Assembly (NCBI GenBank): GCA_017936765.1
Contig: JAGBEX010000030.1
Location: 1 to 64,000, forward strand
DNA: 64,000 bases
Origin: Clostridia bacterium
Lineage (GTDB): Bacteria > Bacillota > Clostridia > Christensenellales > Aristaeellaceae
Direction of reading: 5' to 3'
Position 1 is the stretch's first letter; each line of letters starts with the position of its first letter. Of this stretch, positions 14,827 through 35,128 are shown piece by piece. The notes beneath the pieces were generated by a model. That model was not told the DNA's origin. It saw only the letters and a program-made list of their open reading frames with translations, and made no database searches. Both the position numbers and the translations under genes were made by a program.

Positions 14827-16424
14827 GCGACGATTTCAAGCGTGGAAGCAAGCCGCTGAACGGCGGCGCAAAAACGGGCTTCCGTGGGAATAATGACAAG
14901 AAATTTGCCGGAAATGGCAGCAAAAGTGGTAGCGCCATGGCACCTCGTGGCGACAAGAAGCCTTTTTCCGGCGAAAAGCGCGGCTTTGGTGGGGATCGCA
15001 AACCCTATCAGGGCAACAAGCCGGGCTTTGGTGGGAAACCGGGGAATTTCCGGGGTGAGCGCAAGCCGAAAGTGGTAGCGCCCGTGGAGGGCCTGGCTGC
15101 CCGCCGCATGGCGCTGGCCGTCATCCGCGAGGTGACGGAGAACGACGCCTATGCCTCCCTGTCCCTGAACGAGAAGCTGGTGAAGTCCGGCCTGAACTCC
15201 GCCGACCGCCGCCTGGCTGCCCGCCTGGCCTATGACACCATCGAGCATCTGCTGACCATCGACCATGCGCTGAGCCAGGTGATGGCCAAGCCGGACACGG
15301 ACATCAAGCTGCGGAACATTCTGCGGCTGGGTGCCTGCCAGATTCTGCTGGAGGACCGCATCCCTGAAAGCGCAGCCACCAACACCTGTGTGGAGCTGTG
15401 CAAGGAGCTGGGCATGGAAGGCCTCGCTGGCGTGTGCAACGGCATCCTGCGCAACCTGATCCGCAAGAAGGACGAGCTGACCTGGCCGGACGCGGAAGCC
15501 GAACCCATCCGCGCCCTGTCCATCAAGCATTCCGTGCCGGAGTGGCTGGTGGAGAAGCTCATGGCCGACTGGGGCAAGGAGGAGGCCGTGGCCCTCATGA
15601 GCCACGCCGAGCCGGAGACCTACATCTCCGTGCGCCCCAACATGACCGAATTGGACGATGAGGCCTTCGAGACCCTACTGAACAAGAAGGTCTGGGAGCA
15701 TGAAAAGGGGCTTGTACCCCACAGCTGGCGCATCCGTGGCATGGCGGATATCGGCCAGGATGCAGACTTCCTGGGTGGCAAGTTCTCCATCCAGGGCGAG
15801 AGCAGCATGATGGCCTGCATGGCCGTGAGCCCCAAGCGGGGTTCCCAACTGCTGGACGCCTGCGCTGCCCCCGGCGGCAAGACCTGCCTCTTGGCAGAAA
15901 TGATGGGCGGCACCGGTCGCGTGCAGGCCTGGGAGATGCACGAGCATCGCACGGCGCTGATCACCGCCCAGGCCAAGCGCCTGCATTTGGAAAACATTCG
16001 TCCCATGACCCGCGACGCCTCCAGGCACCGCGAGGACATGGACATGACCATGGACGCCGTGCTGCTGGACGCACCCTGCTCCGGCCTGGGCGTGATGAGC
16101 GACAAGCCCGACGTGAAGTACCGCGTCACCCCCGAAAGCGTGGCCGAGCTGTGCGGCATCCAGGCCAAGCTGCTGGACGCAGTGGCTCCCTATGTGAAGG
16201 AGGGCGGCACGCTGGTGTACTCCACCTGCTCCATGCTCAAGTGCGAGAACCAGCAGCAGGTGGCGGCCTTCCTCCAGCGCCACCCGGAGTTTGAGATCGA
16301 CAAGCTGCCGGAGAGCATTCCCGAGCAGTTCCGCGCTCACTACGGCGTGGGCTTGCAGCTGCTGCCCCACCGTGATCATGTGGAGGGCTTCTACATCTGC
16401 CGGATGCGGAGGAAGCGTTTATGA
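14823..16424 (+). CDS. rsmB: 16S rRNA m5C967 methyltransferase RsmB with basic Gly-rich N-terminal extension
   Basis: 533 residues, about 85 longer than usual. Residues 1-85 are low-complexity, rich in Gly, Lys, Arg and Phe (repeats such as KPFSGEKRGFGGDRKP), likely disordered and RNA-binding. Then comes the NusB-like domain (about 90-225, AARRMALAVIREVTEND) and the methyltransferase: SAM site LLDACAAPGGKTCLLAE, LLDAPCSGLGVMSDKPD, and catalytic Cys in VYSTCSMLKCEN. The core is intact, so activity is expected. Overlaps fmt and rlmN by four bases each. Confidence 0.96.
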   Translation: MSDDFKRGSKPLNGGAKTGFRGNNDKKFAGNGSKSGSAMAPRGDKKPFSGEKRGFGGDRKPYQGNKPGFGGKPGNFRGERKPKVVAPVEGLAARRMALAVIREVTENDAYASLSLNEKLVKSGLNSADRRLAARLAYDTIEHLLTIDHALSQVMAKPDTDIKLRNILRLGACQILLEDRIPESAATNTCVELCKELGMEGLAGVCNGILRNLIRKKDELTWPDAEAEPIRALSIKHSVPEWLVEKLMADWGKEEAVALMSHAEPETYISVRPNMTELDDEAFETLLNKKVWEHEKGLVPHSWRIRGMADIGQDADFLGGKFSIQGESSMMACMAVSPKRGSQLLDACAAPGGKTCLLAEMMGGTGRVQAWEMHEHRTALITAQAKRLHLENIRPMTRDASRHREDMDMTMDAVLLDAPCSGLGVMSDKPDVKYRVTPESVAELCGIQAKLLDAVAPYVKEGGTLVYSTCSMLKCENQQQVAAFLQRHPEFEIDKLPESIPEQFRAHYGVGLQLLPHRDHVEGFYICRMRRKRL

Positions 16425-17458
16425 TCGAGCTGACCGGGATGAACCCGGCGGAACTGACCGCGTGGTGCAAGGAACAGGGTCTGCCCGGCTTCCGGGGCAA
16501 GCAGATCTTCAAGTGGATCCACCAGGGGGCGGACTTCGAGGGTATGACCAACCTGCCCAAGGACCTGCGCGCCCGCTTGCAGGAGATGGCCATCGCCCAG
16601 CCGGTGGAGATCATTGAAAAGCGCCAGTCACGCCTGGACGACACGGTGAAGTTCCTCTTTGGCCTTCGTGACGGCAACTGCGTGGAGGGCGTGCTGATGC
16701 ACTACCACCACGGGTACACCCTGTGCATTTCCACCCAGGTGGGCTGCCGCATGGGCTGCACCTTCTGCGCCAGCACGCTGGATGGCTGCGTCCGCAGCCT
16801 GACTCCCGGCGAAATGCTGGGGGAGATCCTGTGCGCCAACCGCTTTCTGGAGGGTAAGGACAGGGTGCATAACGTGGTGCTGATGGGCAGCGGCGAACCC
16901 CTTGACAATTACGACAATGTGATGAAGTTCCTGCGGCTTCTGCGGGAGCCGGACGGGGTGAGCATCGGCCTGCGCAACGTGAGCCTCTCCACCTGCGGCA
17001 TCGTGCCGAGGATGTATGACCTGGCGGAGGAAGACCTGCCGGTGACGCTGAGTGTTTCGCTCCATGCGCCCAACGACGAGATCCGCCGCCAGACCATGCC
17101 CATCGCCAAGGCCTACCCCATGGAGGACTTGCTGAAGGCCTGCCGGAATTACATCGACAAGACCGGCCGCCGGGTGATATTCGAATACGCCCTGGTGGGC
17201 GGCGTGAACTGCGAGGAAAAGCACGCCGTGGAGCTGGCCTCCCGCCTGCGTGGGATGCAATGCCACGTGAACCTGATCCCCCTGAACGTGGTGGAGGAGC
17301 GGGACCTGCGGGGCGTGAACGAGCGCATTGTGAGTGACTTCCTCAAAACCCTTGAAAAGCTGCACATTTCTGCTACCCGCCGCCGCGAAATGGGCGACGA
17401 CATCGAAGGCGCCTGCGGTCAGCTCCGCAGGAAGACCATCATGGAGAAGAAGCAATGA
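16421..17458 (+). CDS. rlmN: Dual-specificity 23S rRNA/tRNA adenine-C2 methyltransferase RlmN
   Basis: 345 residues. Radical-SAM enzyme that methylates C2 of A2503 in 23S rRNA and A37 in some tRNAs. The cluster motif CRMGCTFC (CxxxCxxC) is present in VGCRMGCTFCASTLDG. Other family segments: NVVLMGSGEPLDNYDNV, SVSLHAPNDEIR, FEYALVGGVN. The second catalytic Cys is in the C-terminal EGACGQLR. It overlaps rsmB and prpC by four bases. Confidence 0.97.
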   Translation: MIELTGMNPAELTAWCKEQGLPGFRGKQIFKWIHQGADFEGMTNLPKDLRARLQEMAIAQPVEIIEKRQSRLDDTVKFLFGLRDGNCVEGVLMHYHHGYTLCISTQVGCRMGCTFCASTLDGCVRSLTPGEMLGEILCANRFLEGKDRVHNVVLMGSGEPLDNYDNVMKFLRLLREPDGVSIGLRNVSLSTCGIVPRMYDLAEEDLPVTLSVSLHAPNDEIRRQTMPIAKAYPMEDLLKACRNYIDKTGRRVIFEYALVGGVNCEEKHAVELASRLRGMQCHVNLIPLNVVEERDLRGVNERIVSDFLKTLEKLHISATRRREMGDDIEGACGQLRRKTIMEKKQ

Positions 17459-20236: not shown

Positions 20237-21130
20237 ATGACGGAAACCGAAATGAAGCAGGGTACGCTCATCCGCGGCTTTGGCGGATTCTACGTGGTGG
20301 TGGACGGCGAAGGCTGCGAGTATACCCTGCGCTGCAAAAAGAAATTCCGGCGGATGAAGCTCTCGCCCCTGGTGGGAGACGAGGTGATGTTCACCCCCGG
20401 CAGCGGCGAGGAGCATGGCTGGCTGGAGGAGATCCTGCCCCGCACCTCCGAGTGCCTGCGCCCGCCCGTGGCCAATGTGGCGCTGCTGCTCATCGTGGTG
20501 GCGCCCGTGCCGGAGCCTGACCTGCTGCTGGTGGATCGCATGATGGTGCGCGCCCGCGCCCAGCAGATGGACATGCTGCTGGTGATCAACAAATGCGACC
20601 TGGATGAATCCCTGGCGGACGAGCTGCGCGCCCAATACGCCGGAGCCAATGTGCAGGTCTGCCCGGTATCGGCTAAGTCCGGCCGGGGCTTGGGCGAGCT
20701 GAAGACCCTGATGGGCAGCCGCCTGTGCTGCCTCACCGGGCAAAGCGGCGTGGGCAAAAGCACGCTGCTCAACGCCCTCTTCGGCCTGGAGCTGGAGACG
20801 GGGGAGATCAGCCGGAAGATCCAGCGGGGCAAGAACACCACCCGCCACGCCGAGCTATTGATGCAGGATGGTATGCGGGTGCTGGACACGGCGGGCTTCA
20901 GCCTGCTGGAGCTGGATGGCGGCATGGAACCCATCACCCTCAAGGAGTATTACCCGGAGTTTGCCGACCACGAGGGCGAATGCCGCTTTGAACCCTGCTA
21001 TCACGACAGGGAGCCGGGGTGCAGCGTTACCGCCGCCTGCGGGGCGGGGGAGATCCACCCGGCACGGCTGGCGCGCTACCGCGAACTGCTGGCTGAAGTG
21101 AAACAGGCATGGAGGGATAGGTATGATTAA
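20237..21130 (+). CDS. rsgA: Ribosome small-subunit GTPase RsgA
   Basis: About 297 residues from ATG 20237, with GGGAGG at 20227-20232; an ATG at 20222 overlaps that site. Circularly permuted GTPase that assists 30S maturation. N-terminal OB fold, then the GTPase with motifs in permuted order: G4 INKCDLDE before G1 GQSGVGKSTLLN, then G2 HTT-type region GKNTTRHAE and G3 DTAGF. C-terminal zinc site with Cys and His in ECRFEPCYHDREPGC. In Bacillus, RsgA is a PrkC substrate, which fits the gene order. Confidence 0.97.
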   Translation: MTETEMKQGTLIRGFGGFYVVVDGEGCEYTLRCKKKFRRMKLSPLVGDEVMFTPGSGEEHGWLEEILPRTSECLRPPVANVALLLIVVAPVPEPDLLLVDRMMVRARAQQMDMLLVINKCDLDESLADELRAQYAGANVQVCPVSAKSGRGLGELKTLMGSRLCCLTGQSGVGKSTLLNALFGLELETGEISRKIQRGKNTTRHAELLMQDGMRVLDTAGFSLLELDGGMEPITLKEYYPEFADHEGECRFEPCYHDREPGCSVTAACGAGEIHPARLARYRELLAEVKQAWRDRYD

Positions 21131-21758
21131 GGTATCACCGTCGATCCTGGCAGCGGATCCCCTGAACATGGAGCGCGATGTGCAGCGCATGGTGGATGCC
21201 GGCTGCGACCTGCTCCACGTGGACATCATGGATGCGCACTTTGTTCCCAACCTCAGCTATGGCCCTGCCCTGGCCGAGGCGCTGCACCGCCGCTTTACCA
21301 TTCCGCTGGATGTGCATCTGATGATGGACAACCCGGAAAGCTACATCGATACCTTTGCCAAGGCCGGCGCCTGGGGCATCACCATCCACGCGGAGATCCC
21401 CGGCAACGTGCCTGCCATGCTGGGACACATCCGCGAACTGGGCCTGAACGTGGGTCTGTCCATCAAGCCCGGTACGCCCATCGAAGCCATCCGCGACCTG
21501 CTGCCCATGGTGGACATGGTGCTGATCATGACCGTGGAGCCTGGCTTTGGCGGGCAGAAGTTCCAGAGCGCCATGCTGGAAAAGATCCGCGCCCTGCGGG
21601 CCTGGGGCTATGCTGGCCTCATCGAGGCCGATGGCGGCGTGTCGCTGGCCAACCTGCCCGACCTGAAGGCGGCTGGCCTGGACGTGGCCGTGATGGGTAC
21701 CGCCATGTACAAGAGCGAGAACCCGGCCAGGGACATGGAGATCATCCACGCGATGTAA
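21123..21758 (+). CDS. rpe: Ribulose-phosphate 3-epimerase
   Basis: 211 residues. Interconverts ribulose-5-phosphate and xylulose-5-phosphate in the pentose phosphate pathway. TIM-barrel with VSPSILAADPLNMERDV, the metal-site segments LLHVDIMDAHFVPN and LDVHLMM, the loop MTVEPGFGGQKF, and the phosphate-binding EADGGVS and VMGTAMYKS. It overlaps rsgA by eight bases and is the last large gene of the priA operon. thiN, present after rpe in Bacillus, is absent here. Confidence 0.98.
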   Translation: MIKVSPSILAADPLNMERDVQRMVDAGCDLLHVDIMDAHFVPNLSYGPALAEALHRRFTIPLDVHLMMDNPESYIDTFAKAGAWGITIHAEIPGNVPAMLGHIRELGLNVGLSIKPGTPIEAIRDLLPMVDMVLIMTVEPGFGGQKFQSAMLEKIRALRAWGYAGLIEADGGVSLANLPDLKAAGLDVAVMGTAMYKSENPARDMEIIHAM

Positions 21759-21765
21759 ATACTTG

Positions 21766-21805
21766 CGCCTCCTGTGGGGAAAACTGCCCCCAGGAGGTGT
21801 TTTTT
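21766..21805 (+). terminator. Hairpin after rpe with T-tract
   Basis: Stem CCTCCTG.GGGG / CCCC.CAGGAGG with a short loop, followed by GTGTTTTTT. It reads as an intrinsic terminator. Its 3' arm, however, is also an ideal ribosome site (AGGAGGTG) for the next small ORF, so it could instead gate that ORF. Confidence 0.75.
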
Positions 21806-21892
21806 GTGGAGCAGAAACCGAAAAAGTCGTCCCGCAGGCTCTTCATTCTGGGCAAGAAAAAGAACCTGATGGAACGCAGACACAACCAGTAG
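21806..21892 (+). CDS. Possible small basic protein (28 residues)
   Basis: GTG at 21806 preceded by AGGAGGT at 21792-21798 with a 7-base gap, an ideal ribosome site. The 28-residue product is strongly basic (about eleven Lys/Arg, e.g. MEQKPKKSSRRLFILGKKKN). It has no membrane helix and does not resemble SpoVM, the small sporulation protein found in this neighbourhood in Bacillus. The ribosome site is inside the 3' arm of the preceding hairpin. It may be a real small protein or chance coding behind a terminator; conservation would decide. Confidence 0.4.
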   Translation: MEQKPKKSSRRLFILGKKKNLMERRHNQ

Positions 21893-21931
21893 ACAAAAAT
21901 ATTTTTCAAAAACACAATATATAGTGTTTCA

Positions 21932-21954
21932 CTTTCCTGAAATGGGTGTATAAT
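21932..21954 (+). promoter_or_regulatory. Likely promoter of the small glycyl-radical-like gene
   Basis: Perfect -10 TATAAT at 21949-21954 with TG directly before it, in an AT-rich stretch, 22 bases before the start codon. The -35 (around TTTCAC, 21927-21932) is poor. Confidence 0.6.
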
Positions 21955-21975: not shown

Positions 21976-22242
21976 ATGGCTTGCAATGTTACGGTAACCG
22001 GCGGTCAGCTGGAACAGGCCGAAATCAATGCCTACATCCAGCGCGCCAAGGAGAAATTCGGTAAGGAACCCTTCGGCATCGACATCCATGTGGACGGCGA
22101 GTACGTCGACCTGTCCTACGACTTTGGCAACCAGCCCTTCCACCGCATCCGCCGCATCACCGGCTACCTCGTCGGCACCCTCGACCGCTTCAACAACGCC
22201 AAGCGCGCCGAAGAATCCGACCGAGTAAAGCACGGTATCTGA
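21976..22242 (+). CDS. Small protein resembling the C-terminal glycyl-radical tail of class III ribonucleotide reductase
   Basis: 88 residues from ATG 21976 (AAGGAGATGATC upstream). The N-terminal half (VTVTGGQLEQAEINAYIQRA, then GIDIHVDGEYVDLSYDF) is a small alpha/beta unit. The C-terminal half, RIRRITGYLVGTLDRFNNAK then RAEESDRVKHG, aligns by eye with the end of NrdD proteins, where R-[VI]-x-G-Y carries the glycyl radical and is followed by [FW]N.[GA]K..E. Similar short proteins in Clostridia are, to my knowledge, annotated as NrdD-like. It lacks the catalytic barrel and cannot be a reductase alone. It may be a spare radical domain like YfiD/GrcA, or a regulator. Monocistronic. Confidence 0.6.
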   Translation: MACNVTVTGGQLEQAEINAYIQRAKEKFGKEPFGIDIHVDGEYVDLSYDFGNQPFHRIRRITGYLVGTLDRFNNAKRAEESDRVKHGI

Positions 22243-33486: not shown

Positions 33487-34269
33487 CTACTGCACCTGCA
33501 CATGCTTTCGCATATGAAGCAGCGCATTCTTCTCCAGCCGGGACACCTGCGCCTGGCTGATGCCGATTTCCCCGGCCACCTCCATCTGGGTGCGGCCTTC
33601 GAAAAAGCGCAGCCGCAGGATCTTCTTCTCCCGCTCGTTCAGCCGCTGCAGGCCTTCCTTGATGGACAGATCCTCCAGCCACTTTTCGTCCCTGGTGTTC
33701 TCGTCCTTCACCTGATCCATGATGTACAGCGCGTCGCCGCCATCGTTGTACACCGGCTCAAACAGGCTCACCGGATCCTGAATGGCCTCCAGGGCGAACA
33801 CCACGTCCTGCCGGGGGAGCTGCATTTCCTCGGCGATCTCAGTCACGTCCGGTTCACGGTTCCATTGGGCCTGCAGGCGGTCGCGGGCTTGCAGCGCCTT
33901 GTAGGCCGTGTCCCGCATACTGCGGCTGACCCGGATCACATTGTTATCCCGCAGGTAGCGGCGGATCTCGCCGATGATCATGGGTACCGCGTAGGTGGAG
34001 AAGCGCACGTTTTGGCTGGTGTCGAAATTGTCCAGCGCCTTCATCAGGCCGATGCACCCCACCTGAAACAGGTCGTCCGCATTCTCGCCCCGGCCGGAGA
34101 AGCGCTGGATCACGCTGAGCACCAGCCGGAGATTGCCCTGGATGAATTCATCCCGTGCCTGCCTGTCGCCCCCATGCACCAGGGGGAAGAGTTCCCGCAT
34201 CCGCTCGTTGGACAGCACCGGAAGGGTGGAGGTGTCCACCCCGCAGATCTCGACCTTGCCGTAAGCCAT
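33487..34269 (-). CDS. sigG: Sporulation sigma factor SigG (late forespore)
   Basis: 260 residues from ATG 34269 with AGGAGG just upstream. Directs forespore genes after engulfment. Start MAYGKVEICGVDTSTLPVLS is diagnostic for SigG; region 2 FQVGCIGLMKALDNFDTSQNVRFSTYAVPMIIGEIRRYLRD (abridged core: RFSTYAVPMIIGEI), region 3 PDVTEIAEEM, region 4 LRFFEGRTQMEVAGEIGISQAQVSRLEK. It lies 133 bases downstream of sigE on the same strand, the classical spoIIGA-sigE-sigG order, with its own sporulation-type promoter. Confidence 0.97.
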   Translation of the reverse strand: MAYGKVEICGVDTSTLPVLSNERMRELFPLVHGGDRQARDEFIQGNLRLVLSVIQRFSGRGENADDLFQVGCIGLMKALDNFDTSQNVRFSTYAVPMIIGEIRRYLRDNNVIRVSRSMRDTAYKALQARDRLQAQWNREPDVTEIAEEMQLPRQDVVFALEAIQDPVSLFEPVYNDGGDALYIMDQVKDENTRDEKWLEDLSIKEGLQRLNEREKKILRLRFFEGRTQMEVAGEIGISQAQVSRLEKNALLHMRKHVQVQ

Positions 34270-34402: not shown

Positions 34403-35128
34403 TTATCCGCTGACGCGCAATAATTCGCCATGGAGGCGGTGGAGGATGCGCTTTTCCAGCCGGGAAATGTAGCTCTGGCTGATGCCCAGCACGTCCGCCA
34501 CCTCCTTCTGGGTCATTTCGGTGCGGCCACCCAGGCCGAAGCGCAGGTTCATGATCTGCTGCTCCCTGGGGGAGAGGTGGCTCAGGGCGGCGAAGAGCAT
34601 CTGCTTTTCGGCATTTTCCTCCATGCCCCGGTACACCGTATCGCTTTCTGTACCCAGCACGTCGGAGAGCAGCAGCTCGTTGCCGTCCCAGTCGGTTTTC
34701 AGGGGTTCATCCAGGGAGACCTCCACCTTCGTGCGGGAGAAGCGGCGCAGGAACATCAGCACCTCGTTCTCGATGCAGCGGCTGGCGTAGGTAGCCAGCT
34801 TGATCTTCTTGCCGGGGTCGAAGGTGTTCACGGCCTTGATCAGCCCAATGGTGCCGATGGAGATCAGATCCTCCAGCATGACGCCGGTGTTCTCAAACTT
34901 GCGGGCGATGAACACCACTAGGCGCAGGTTGCGCTCGATGAGGGTCTGGCGGATGGTGCCGTCGTCCTGGTGGAGGCGGGCGCAGAGGGCTTGCTCTTCC
35001 TCCAAGGTCAGGGGCGCGGGCAGGGGATCGGGGCCGCCGATGTAATACAGCTCCTGGGTGGTGAGGCGGGAGAGCAGCTCGGTGAGGCGCTGCCGGGCAA
35101 TGGAATAGAGCTTGAAGGTCACGGACAT
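34403..35128 (-). CDS. sigE: Sporulation sigma factor SigE precursor (pro-sigma-E)
   Basis: 241 residues from ATG 35128 (AGGAGG upstream). Early mother-cell sigma factor made as an inactive precursor. The N-terminal pro-sequence (about 1-28, ending near [12 protein letters not shown]) is the part cut by SpoIIGA. Then region 2 with [20 protein letters not shown] and [20 protein letters not shown], and region 4 with [15 protein letters not shown] and [21 protein letters not shown]. Its start overlaps the end of spoIIGA, so activator protease and substrate are translated together. Confidence 0.97.

Follow-up and report, generated by a model that had tools for sequence, protein, structure and literature searches.

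A conserved microgene behind rpe with a predicted forespore-type promoter inside a hairpin that may mask its ribosome site

The sequence behind rpe at this locus raises the question of why the ribosome site of a very small gene should lie within what looks like a transcription terminator. In the window, the whole 64,000-nucleotide stretch of DNA that was analysed, rpe (ribulose-phosphate 3-epimerase; 21123–21758, plus strand; TIGR01163, 227.2 bits against a cut-off of 212.6) is the last gene of a prpC–prkC–rsgA–rpe run. RsgA is matched by TIGR00157 (171.9 bits, cut-off 100) and the prpC and prkC products by PP2C and kinase/PASTA Pfam families; the frame ahead of the run, at 16421–17458, looks like rlmN. 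A first-pass annotation had described a 28-codon Lys/Arg-rich GTG frame directly behind rpe with its ribosome site in the 3' arm of a terminator-like hairpin, and had offered two explanations: an ordinary terminator in which a ribosome site lies by chance, or expression of a small protein gated by the hairpin.

The hairpin and the small gene

Both features are present in the sequence as described. The hairpin (21765–21800, plus strand), which we predict to mask the ribosome site in read-through RNA, consists of a 5' arm at 21765–21779, a 7-nt loop at 21780–21786 and a 3' arm at 21787–21800, with 14 pairs and one bulged base. The 76-nt stretch that contains it folds at −29.4 kcal/mol (z −3.79), and only 1 of 200 shuffles is equally stable. 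The Shine–Dalgarno (SD) sequence AGGAGG lies within the 3' arm, at 21792–21797 on the plus strand, and is followed by TG, by a T6 tract (21800–21805) that makes the hairpin terminator-like, and then by the GTG start, 8 nt downstream of AGGAGG and 6 nt downstream of the AGGAGGTG quoted in the first-pass annotation. The G+C-rich stem and the immediate T run are those of an intrinsic terminator, although a simple terminator scan does not list the hairpin, perhaps on account of the bulge. The small gene itself extends from 21806 to 21892 on the plus strand (28 codons, TAG stop at 21890–21892) and encodes VEQKPKKSSRRLFILGKKKNLMERRHNQ, with a net charge of +8. This arrangement is more than a chance observation because the frame recurs in relatives, and so does the hairpin with its paired SD.

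Relatives were compared by locating Rpe and reading the sequence downstream of it, which gave a better yield than searches with the peptide. Rpe was recovered in all 18 genomes of the genus; among 30 genomes taken from the family's other genera, 26 yielded it. A small basic frame with a good SD stands directly behind rpe in 17 of the 18 genus genomes, the exception being G014 (locus L029), so the check at the same position in related genomes that the first-pass annotation had proposed came out in favour of the frame. In the other genera, four of the 26 Rpe-bearing genomes carry such a frame (L143, L151, L152 and L154); the 30 genomes were picked by hand, and five of them come from one genus where the profile had already matched two. 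The peptides range from 22 to 36 residues, with a net charge of +6 to +9 in 16 genus members. Most of them share a core near LFxxPxKKKRMxRRPxR, and those of the window's clade end in RRHNQ or similar. By their record titles, many of the relatives come from ruminant and deer gut samples.

A synonymous-site analysis, likewise proposed at first pass, indicates purifying selection: in-frame pN/pS is 0.36 for L013–L017 and 0.43 for the last 16 codons of L020–L028, against 1.01, 1.32, 1.53 and 1.42 out of frame in the same sets. Because the frame stands behind rpe in nearly all genomes of the genus and is under purifying selection, we regard it, from this comparison, as a real gene.

Searches with the peptide in 60 relatives gave 12 matches at E 10, and five of these reach 1.6e-7 or better. 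Across 150 genomes of the family, a profile returned 79 matches at E 1, nearly all of them weak. Of the matches beyond the genus that were followed up, only those in G180 (5.1e-5) and G163 (0.0015) stand behind rpe. In 396 genomes of the order the profile gave nine matches at E 0.02. Four belong to the window's own genome or family; the other five (L263–L267), from outside the family, have no Rpe match in their 1.5-kb flanks and were judged to be chance matches. A profile search of the genome's contigs with the peptide alignment returned nothing useful. With two members as queries, no Pfam or NCBIfam family was matched up to E 10, and membership in a known small acid-soluble spore protein (SASP) or minor SASP family was not found in this search.

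A predicted forespore-type promoter within the hairpin

The window carries genes that are a sign of a sporulation sigma cascade. A sigG-like gene lies at 33487–34269 on the minus strand (TIGR02885, the sigF model; 295.9 bits, short of the 321.45 cut-off) and a sigE-like gene just upstream of it (match at 34424–34975); both names rest on gene order and the N-terminus. Among the 18 genus genomes, gpr and SASP genes are each found in 15, both over their cut-offs, and spoIIR is matched in 13, none over cut-off. The sigF model matches all 18, none over cut-off, and also 11 of 14 control genomes, and is unspecific by itself. Judged by these genes, a sporulation cascade is present in the genus.

A predicted sigma-F-type promoter occupies 21757–21786 on the plus strand and so shares sequence with the hairpin's 5' arm and loop. 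It consists of a −35 element AAATA (21757–21761), in which the usual first G is missing, a 15-nt spacer and the −10 element GGGAAAACTG (21777–21786). The aligned copies have GNATA, 15 bases and GGNNANACT ahead of the small frame, an arrangement that resembles the sigma-F consensus. The pattern RNATA-N15-GGNNANAHTR, which was written after the site had been seen and whose first letter was then widened to R, has a single match in the window, at the small gene, where 0.06 would be expected. Over the whole genome it has 14 matches, one of them directly upstream of gpr, compared with four for the reversed pattern.

For a broader comparison, a promoter matrix was trained on the upstream regions of 13 spoIIR and 15 gpr genes. 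The matrix was seeded with a sigma-F consensus, a motif already noticed ahead of the small gene; when 14 Gibbs runs were made without a seed, the seven best recovered the same motif, three fell on the SD and four on T runs or other sequence. The training set has flaws, with gpr starts placed too far downstream in L202, L207 and L210 and no convincing site at the spoIIR gene of L223. A site of the spoIIR/gpr class ends 18–25 nt ahead of the start in 16 of the 17 genus copies, L015 having no acceptable site, and each of the 16 beats all four rpe control stretches of its own locus, narrowly so in L026 (11.2 against 10.9). Ten of the 17 have strong sites, matched by 0–6 of 500 shuffles, and six, among them the window's own weak site (29 of 500), have marginal ones (27–42 of 500). 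In G014, which lacks the small gene, there is no site behind rpe (323 of 500).

Behind rpe, a score of at least 10 is reached at 13 of 19 loci with the small gene and at two of 85 without a recognised gene, in a scan of 104 of 106 loci (L096 runs off its contig and L136 is too short) in which some loci repeat one genome. The other six gene-bearing loci score 3.3–8.7, overlapping the gene-less loci, which reach 8.9 when the two above 10 are set aside. These two, L150 and L155, belong to the same genus as L151, L152 and L154; they have a strong forespore-type promoter with no intact small gene recognised, and may hold a decayed copy or have lost the frame.

At sigG, which was outside the training set, the score is at least 10 in 10 of 18 genomes and at least 7.9 in 17. 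The placement at gpr is similar to that at the small gene, with the −10 element ending 20–26 nt before the start in 12 of 15 copies, the other three being those with misplaced starts. At the SASP genes, where L259 was left out of the upstream-region set, a pattern with a spacing of 17–19 has no matches and one with a spacing of 15 matches 10 of 29, but the latter requires its −10 element to begin with CA and so does not distinguish sigma-F from sigma-G. We infer that the small-gene promoter is used by a forespore sigma factor, without choosing between the two, since sigma-F and sigma-G sites overlap, as is also reported for C. difficile (PMC7438776).

Masking, termination and alternative explanations

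With a promoter in this position there would be two kinds of RNA that differ in the availability of the ribosome site. When the gene's own transcript is taken to begin 6 nt past the −10 element (placed by hand for L015), the predicted start in the window falls at about 21792–21794 on the plus strand, at or just before AGGAGG, and the predicted leaders in the genus are 12–19 nt long. In the window, the calculated price of freeing the SD is 13.8 kcal/mol for read-through RNA and 4.8 for the predicted own transcript. The cost is higher in read-through RNA (6.0–19.2 kcal/mol) than in own RNA (0.1–7.0) in every one of the 17 genus copies; the means for all 21 copies are 11.2 and 3.5 kcal/mol. Either five or all six SD bases are paired upstream in 16 of the genus copies, and three are in L025. 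When the upstream part is shuffled with the SD held fixed, the observed cost is reached by no more than 5 of 100 shuffles in 15 of the 17; the weaker masks are those of L017 (7 of 100) and L028 (11 of 100). Outside the genus the mask is doubtful: the cost is reached by 94 of 100 shuffles in L143, 6 in L151, 9 in L152 and 29 in L154, and in L143 it amounts to 2.7 kcal/mol in read-through RNA and 3.5 in own RNA. The median SD cost of the small gene (9.4, 21 copies) exceeds those of spoIIR (5.9, 13 copies), SASP (3.8, 29) and gpr (4.4, 15), with a Mann–Whitney p of 2e-6 that is not corrected for relatedness.

By eye, the SD of the gpr leaders of L204, L209, L213, L214 and L215 is flanked by an inverted repeat, CCGCATTC-AAGGAG-GAATGCGG, in which L214 shows matching substitutions on both sides (CTGCATTC...GAATGCAG). 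The gpr own transcript may be without part of the 5' arm, because the forespore −10 element is just upstream.

The terminator-like part of the hairpin is less constant than the mask. A run of four or more T residues follows the SD in nine of the 17 genus copies, and its presence varies with the next gene, which may be NrdD-like, RsmB/F-like or DEAD-box-like (the latter two named from motifs alone). All eight copies with an NrdD-like gene next have the T run, as compared with one of nine with an RsmB/F-like gene close behind (L020; Fisher 0.0004, ancestry not corrected), and TATAAT stands ahead of the NrdD-like gene in seven of those eight. L143, outside the genus, is an exception, with an NrdD-like gene next and no T run. 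In the window, an NrdR-box-like palindrome, AACACAATATATAGTGTTT, and a TATAAT element occupy 21911–21954, ahead of an 88-residue frame at 21976–22242. Near its end, 33 residues match the NrdD C-terminus (PF13597, 29.9 bits, cut-off 26.2), which marks the frame as a short protein like the tail of NrdD, the anaerobic ribonucleotide reductase. It may be that the hairpin only masks if the following gene depends on read-through, and also terminates if that gene is served by a promoter of its own. The hairpin of the window's clade may well be a terminator too, although across the genus termination looks secondary.

We are reasonably confident in the following reading of these results: a small forespore gene of the sigma-F type lies behind rpe, the hairpin masks its SD in read-through RNA, and its own promoter bypasses the mask. 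The frame, the SD pairing and the promoter motif are conserved in sequence. A forespore sigma factor would act on the promoter, and because the −10 element lies in the hairpin loop, the resulting RNA would start at or just before AGGAGG, would be without the 5' arm and would be translated. RNA entering from rpe would have both arms, so that AGGAGG would be paired and the frame silent. In the window's clade, the T-tract hairpin would probably also end much of the rpe transcript. The first-pass proposal of a hairpin gate is partly supported; it missed the predicted promoter inside the hairpin, with which the mask would concern read-through mRNA only.

An ordinary rpe terminator, with AGGAGG in its 3' arm by accident and a real frame that is not purposefully masked, would account for the hairpin and T6 of the window, and L081 has a CCTCC/GGAGG hairpin with a T run behind rpe where no small gene is listed. 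We nonetheless consider this unlikely. Masking is the more constant feature, because the SD is paired in all 17 genus copies and the T run is found in only nine, and the promoter is placed so that its transcript would be without the 5' arm. Because the pairing is kept where the T run has been lost, gating is a better explanation than accident, and of the two explanations first offered the small protein and its gate fit better; the hairpin may be a terminator as well, since the two readings are not exclusive. Translational coupling, in which a ribosome that has finished rpe opens the hairpin and re-initiates at AGGAGG, with the peptide tracking Rpe in all cells, appears improbable. In the window a terminating ribosome could reach the first SD partner, which is 12 nt beyond the first base of the rpe stop codon, but over 21 copies this distance ranges between 10 and 49 nt, and there would be no need for a forespore-type promoter. 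Still less credible is a factor-sensing gate of the riboswitch kind: an Rfam search of the window gave no family at its gathering score, and the arms and loops vary between copies except for the −10 element and the SD, even though a stable, conserved hairpin over the SD is what such a gate would need.

The position behind rpe also brings SpoVM to mind, since spoVM lies behind rpe in B. subtilis. The idea that the small frame is SpoVM or its descendant draws on L158, a locus of another genus in which a hydrophobic frame and then, by eye, a SpoVM-like frame follow rpe. That makes the neighbourhood one of interest, as the first-pass annotation had suggested, and its statement that the peptide is not SpoVM-like also holds: there is no local alignment between the two up to E 100. 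Furthermore, G016 (L028) and G002 (L027) carry the small gene plus a separate SpoVM-like frame, and we give SpoVM ancestry almost no credence. SpoVM-like frames (L268–L276; for example MRVRMVCIRLPKFMGGIVRKMAGRRR) are found away from the small gene in nine of the 18 genus genomes; the window's own genome has none at E 1. As a separate observation, L158, L161, L164, L166 and L167, from other genera, have a hydrophobic frame of about 46–62 codons behind rpe, and in L164 and L167 its SD seems, by eye, to sit in the 3' arm of a hairpin.

Relation to known systems

Returning to the forespore gene with its read-through mask, we lean towards a further conclusion, that these genes make up a new family of basic forespore proteins of 22–36 residues, known so far from three genera of one Clostridia family. 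In such a family the promoter would be nested in an SD-masking hairpin whose mask is constant and whose terminator part varies with the downstream gene, ending the housekeeping transcript when a separate promoter serves that gene. An open-access literature search found no paper on the small gene or on such a promoter/hairpin element. A conserved microprotein that is unnamed in Pfam and NCBIfam would thereby gain a likely programme, that of the forespore, and a read-through mask would be extended to a gene behind a housekeeping operon and, in some species, merged with a terminator. The rule of looking for a forespore −10 element inside an SD-masking hairpin may lead to further hidden sporulation microgenes in uncultured Clostridia.

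Minor SASPs, SspM, SspN and CsfG are short forespore proteins, some of them basic. The small peptide is likewise short and basic, but differs from them in having no family match in the searches described above. From charge and promoter class alone, one might tentatively guess at a nucleic-acid- or ribosome-binding role for it in the forespore. The spoVM gene, also tiny and devoted to sporulation, sits close to rpe in some Firmicutes, and is unrelated in sequence.

In its regulation, the small gene can be placed, from its sequence alone, with B. subtilis sigG and phage T4 gene e. For sigG (PMC5942855), a large hairpin is proposed to prevent the translation of transcripts that read through from the spoIIG promoter, and is unable to form in transcripts from the sigG promoter. 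As at that gene, a forespore promoter, here a predicted one, is directly upstream and the SD hairpin would be possible only in read-through RNA; unlike there, the upstream gene here is a housekeeping gene rather than a sporulation operon, and some copies have a T run. In the genus studied here, sigG has a read-through SD cost of its own of 4.1–10.3 kcal/mol. For T4 gene e (lysozyme) and I-TevI, PMC3014915 describes long early transcripts that mask the ribosome site and late promoters just upstream whose transcripts are without the 5' part of the structure, with translation measured. The small gene shares with these the predicted pairing of the ribosome site in the long RNA, and the position of its putative promoter implies an own RNA that would be without the 5' arm. 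The genes are unrelated, and whereas a phage late factor makes the unmasked transcript in T4, a sporulation sigma factor would do so here.
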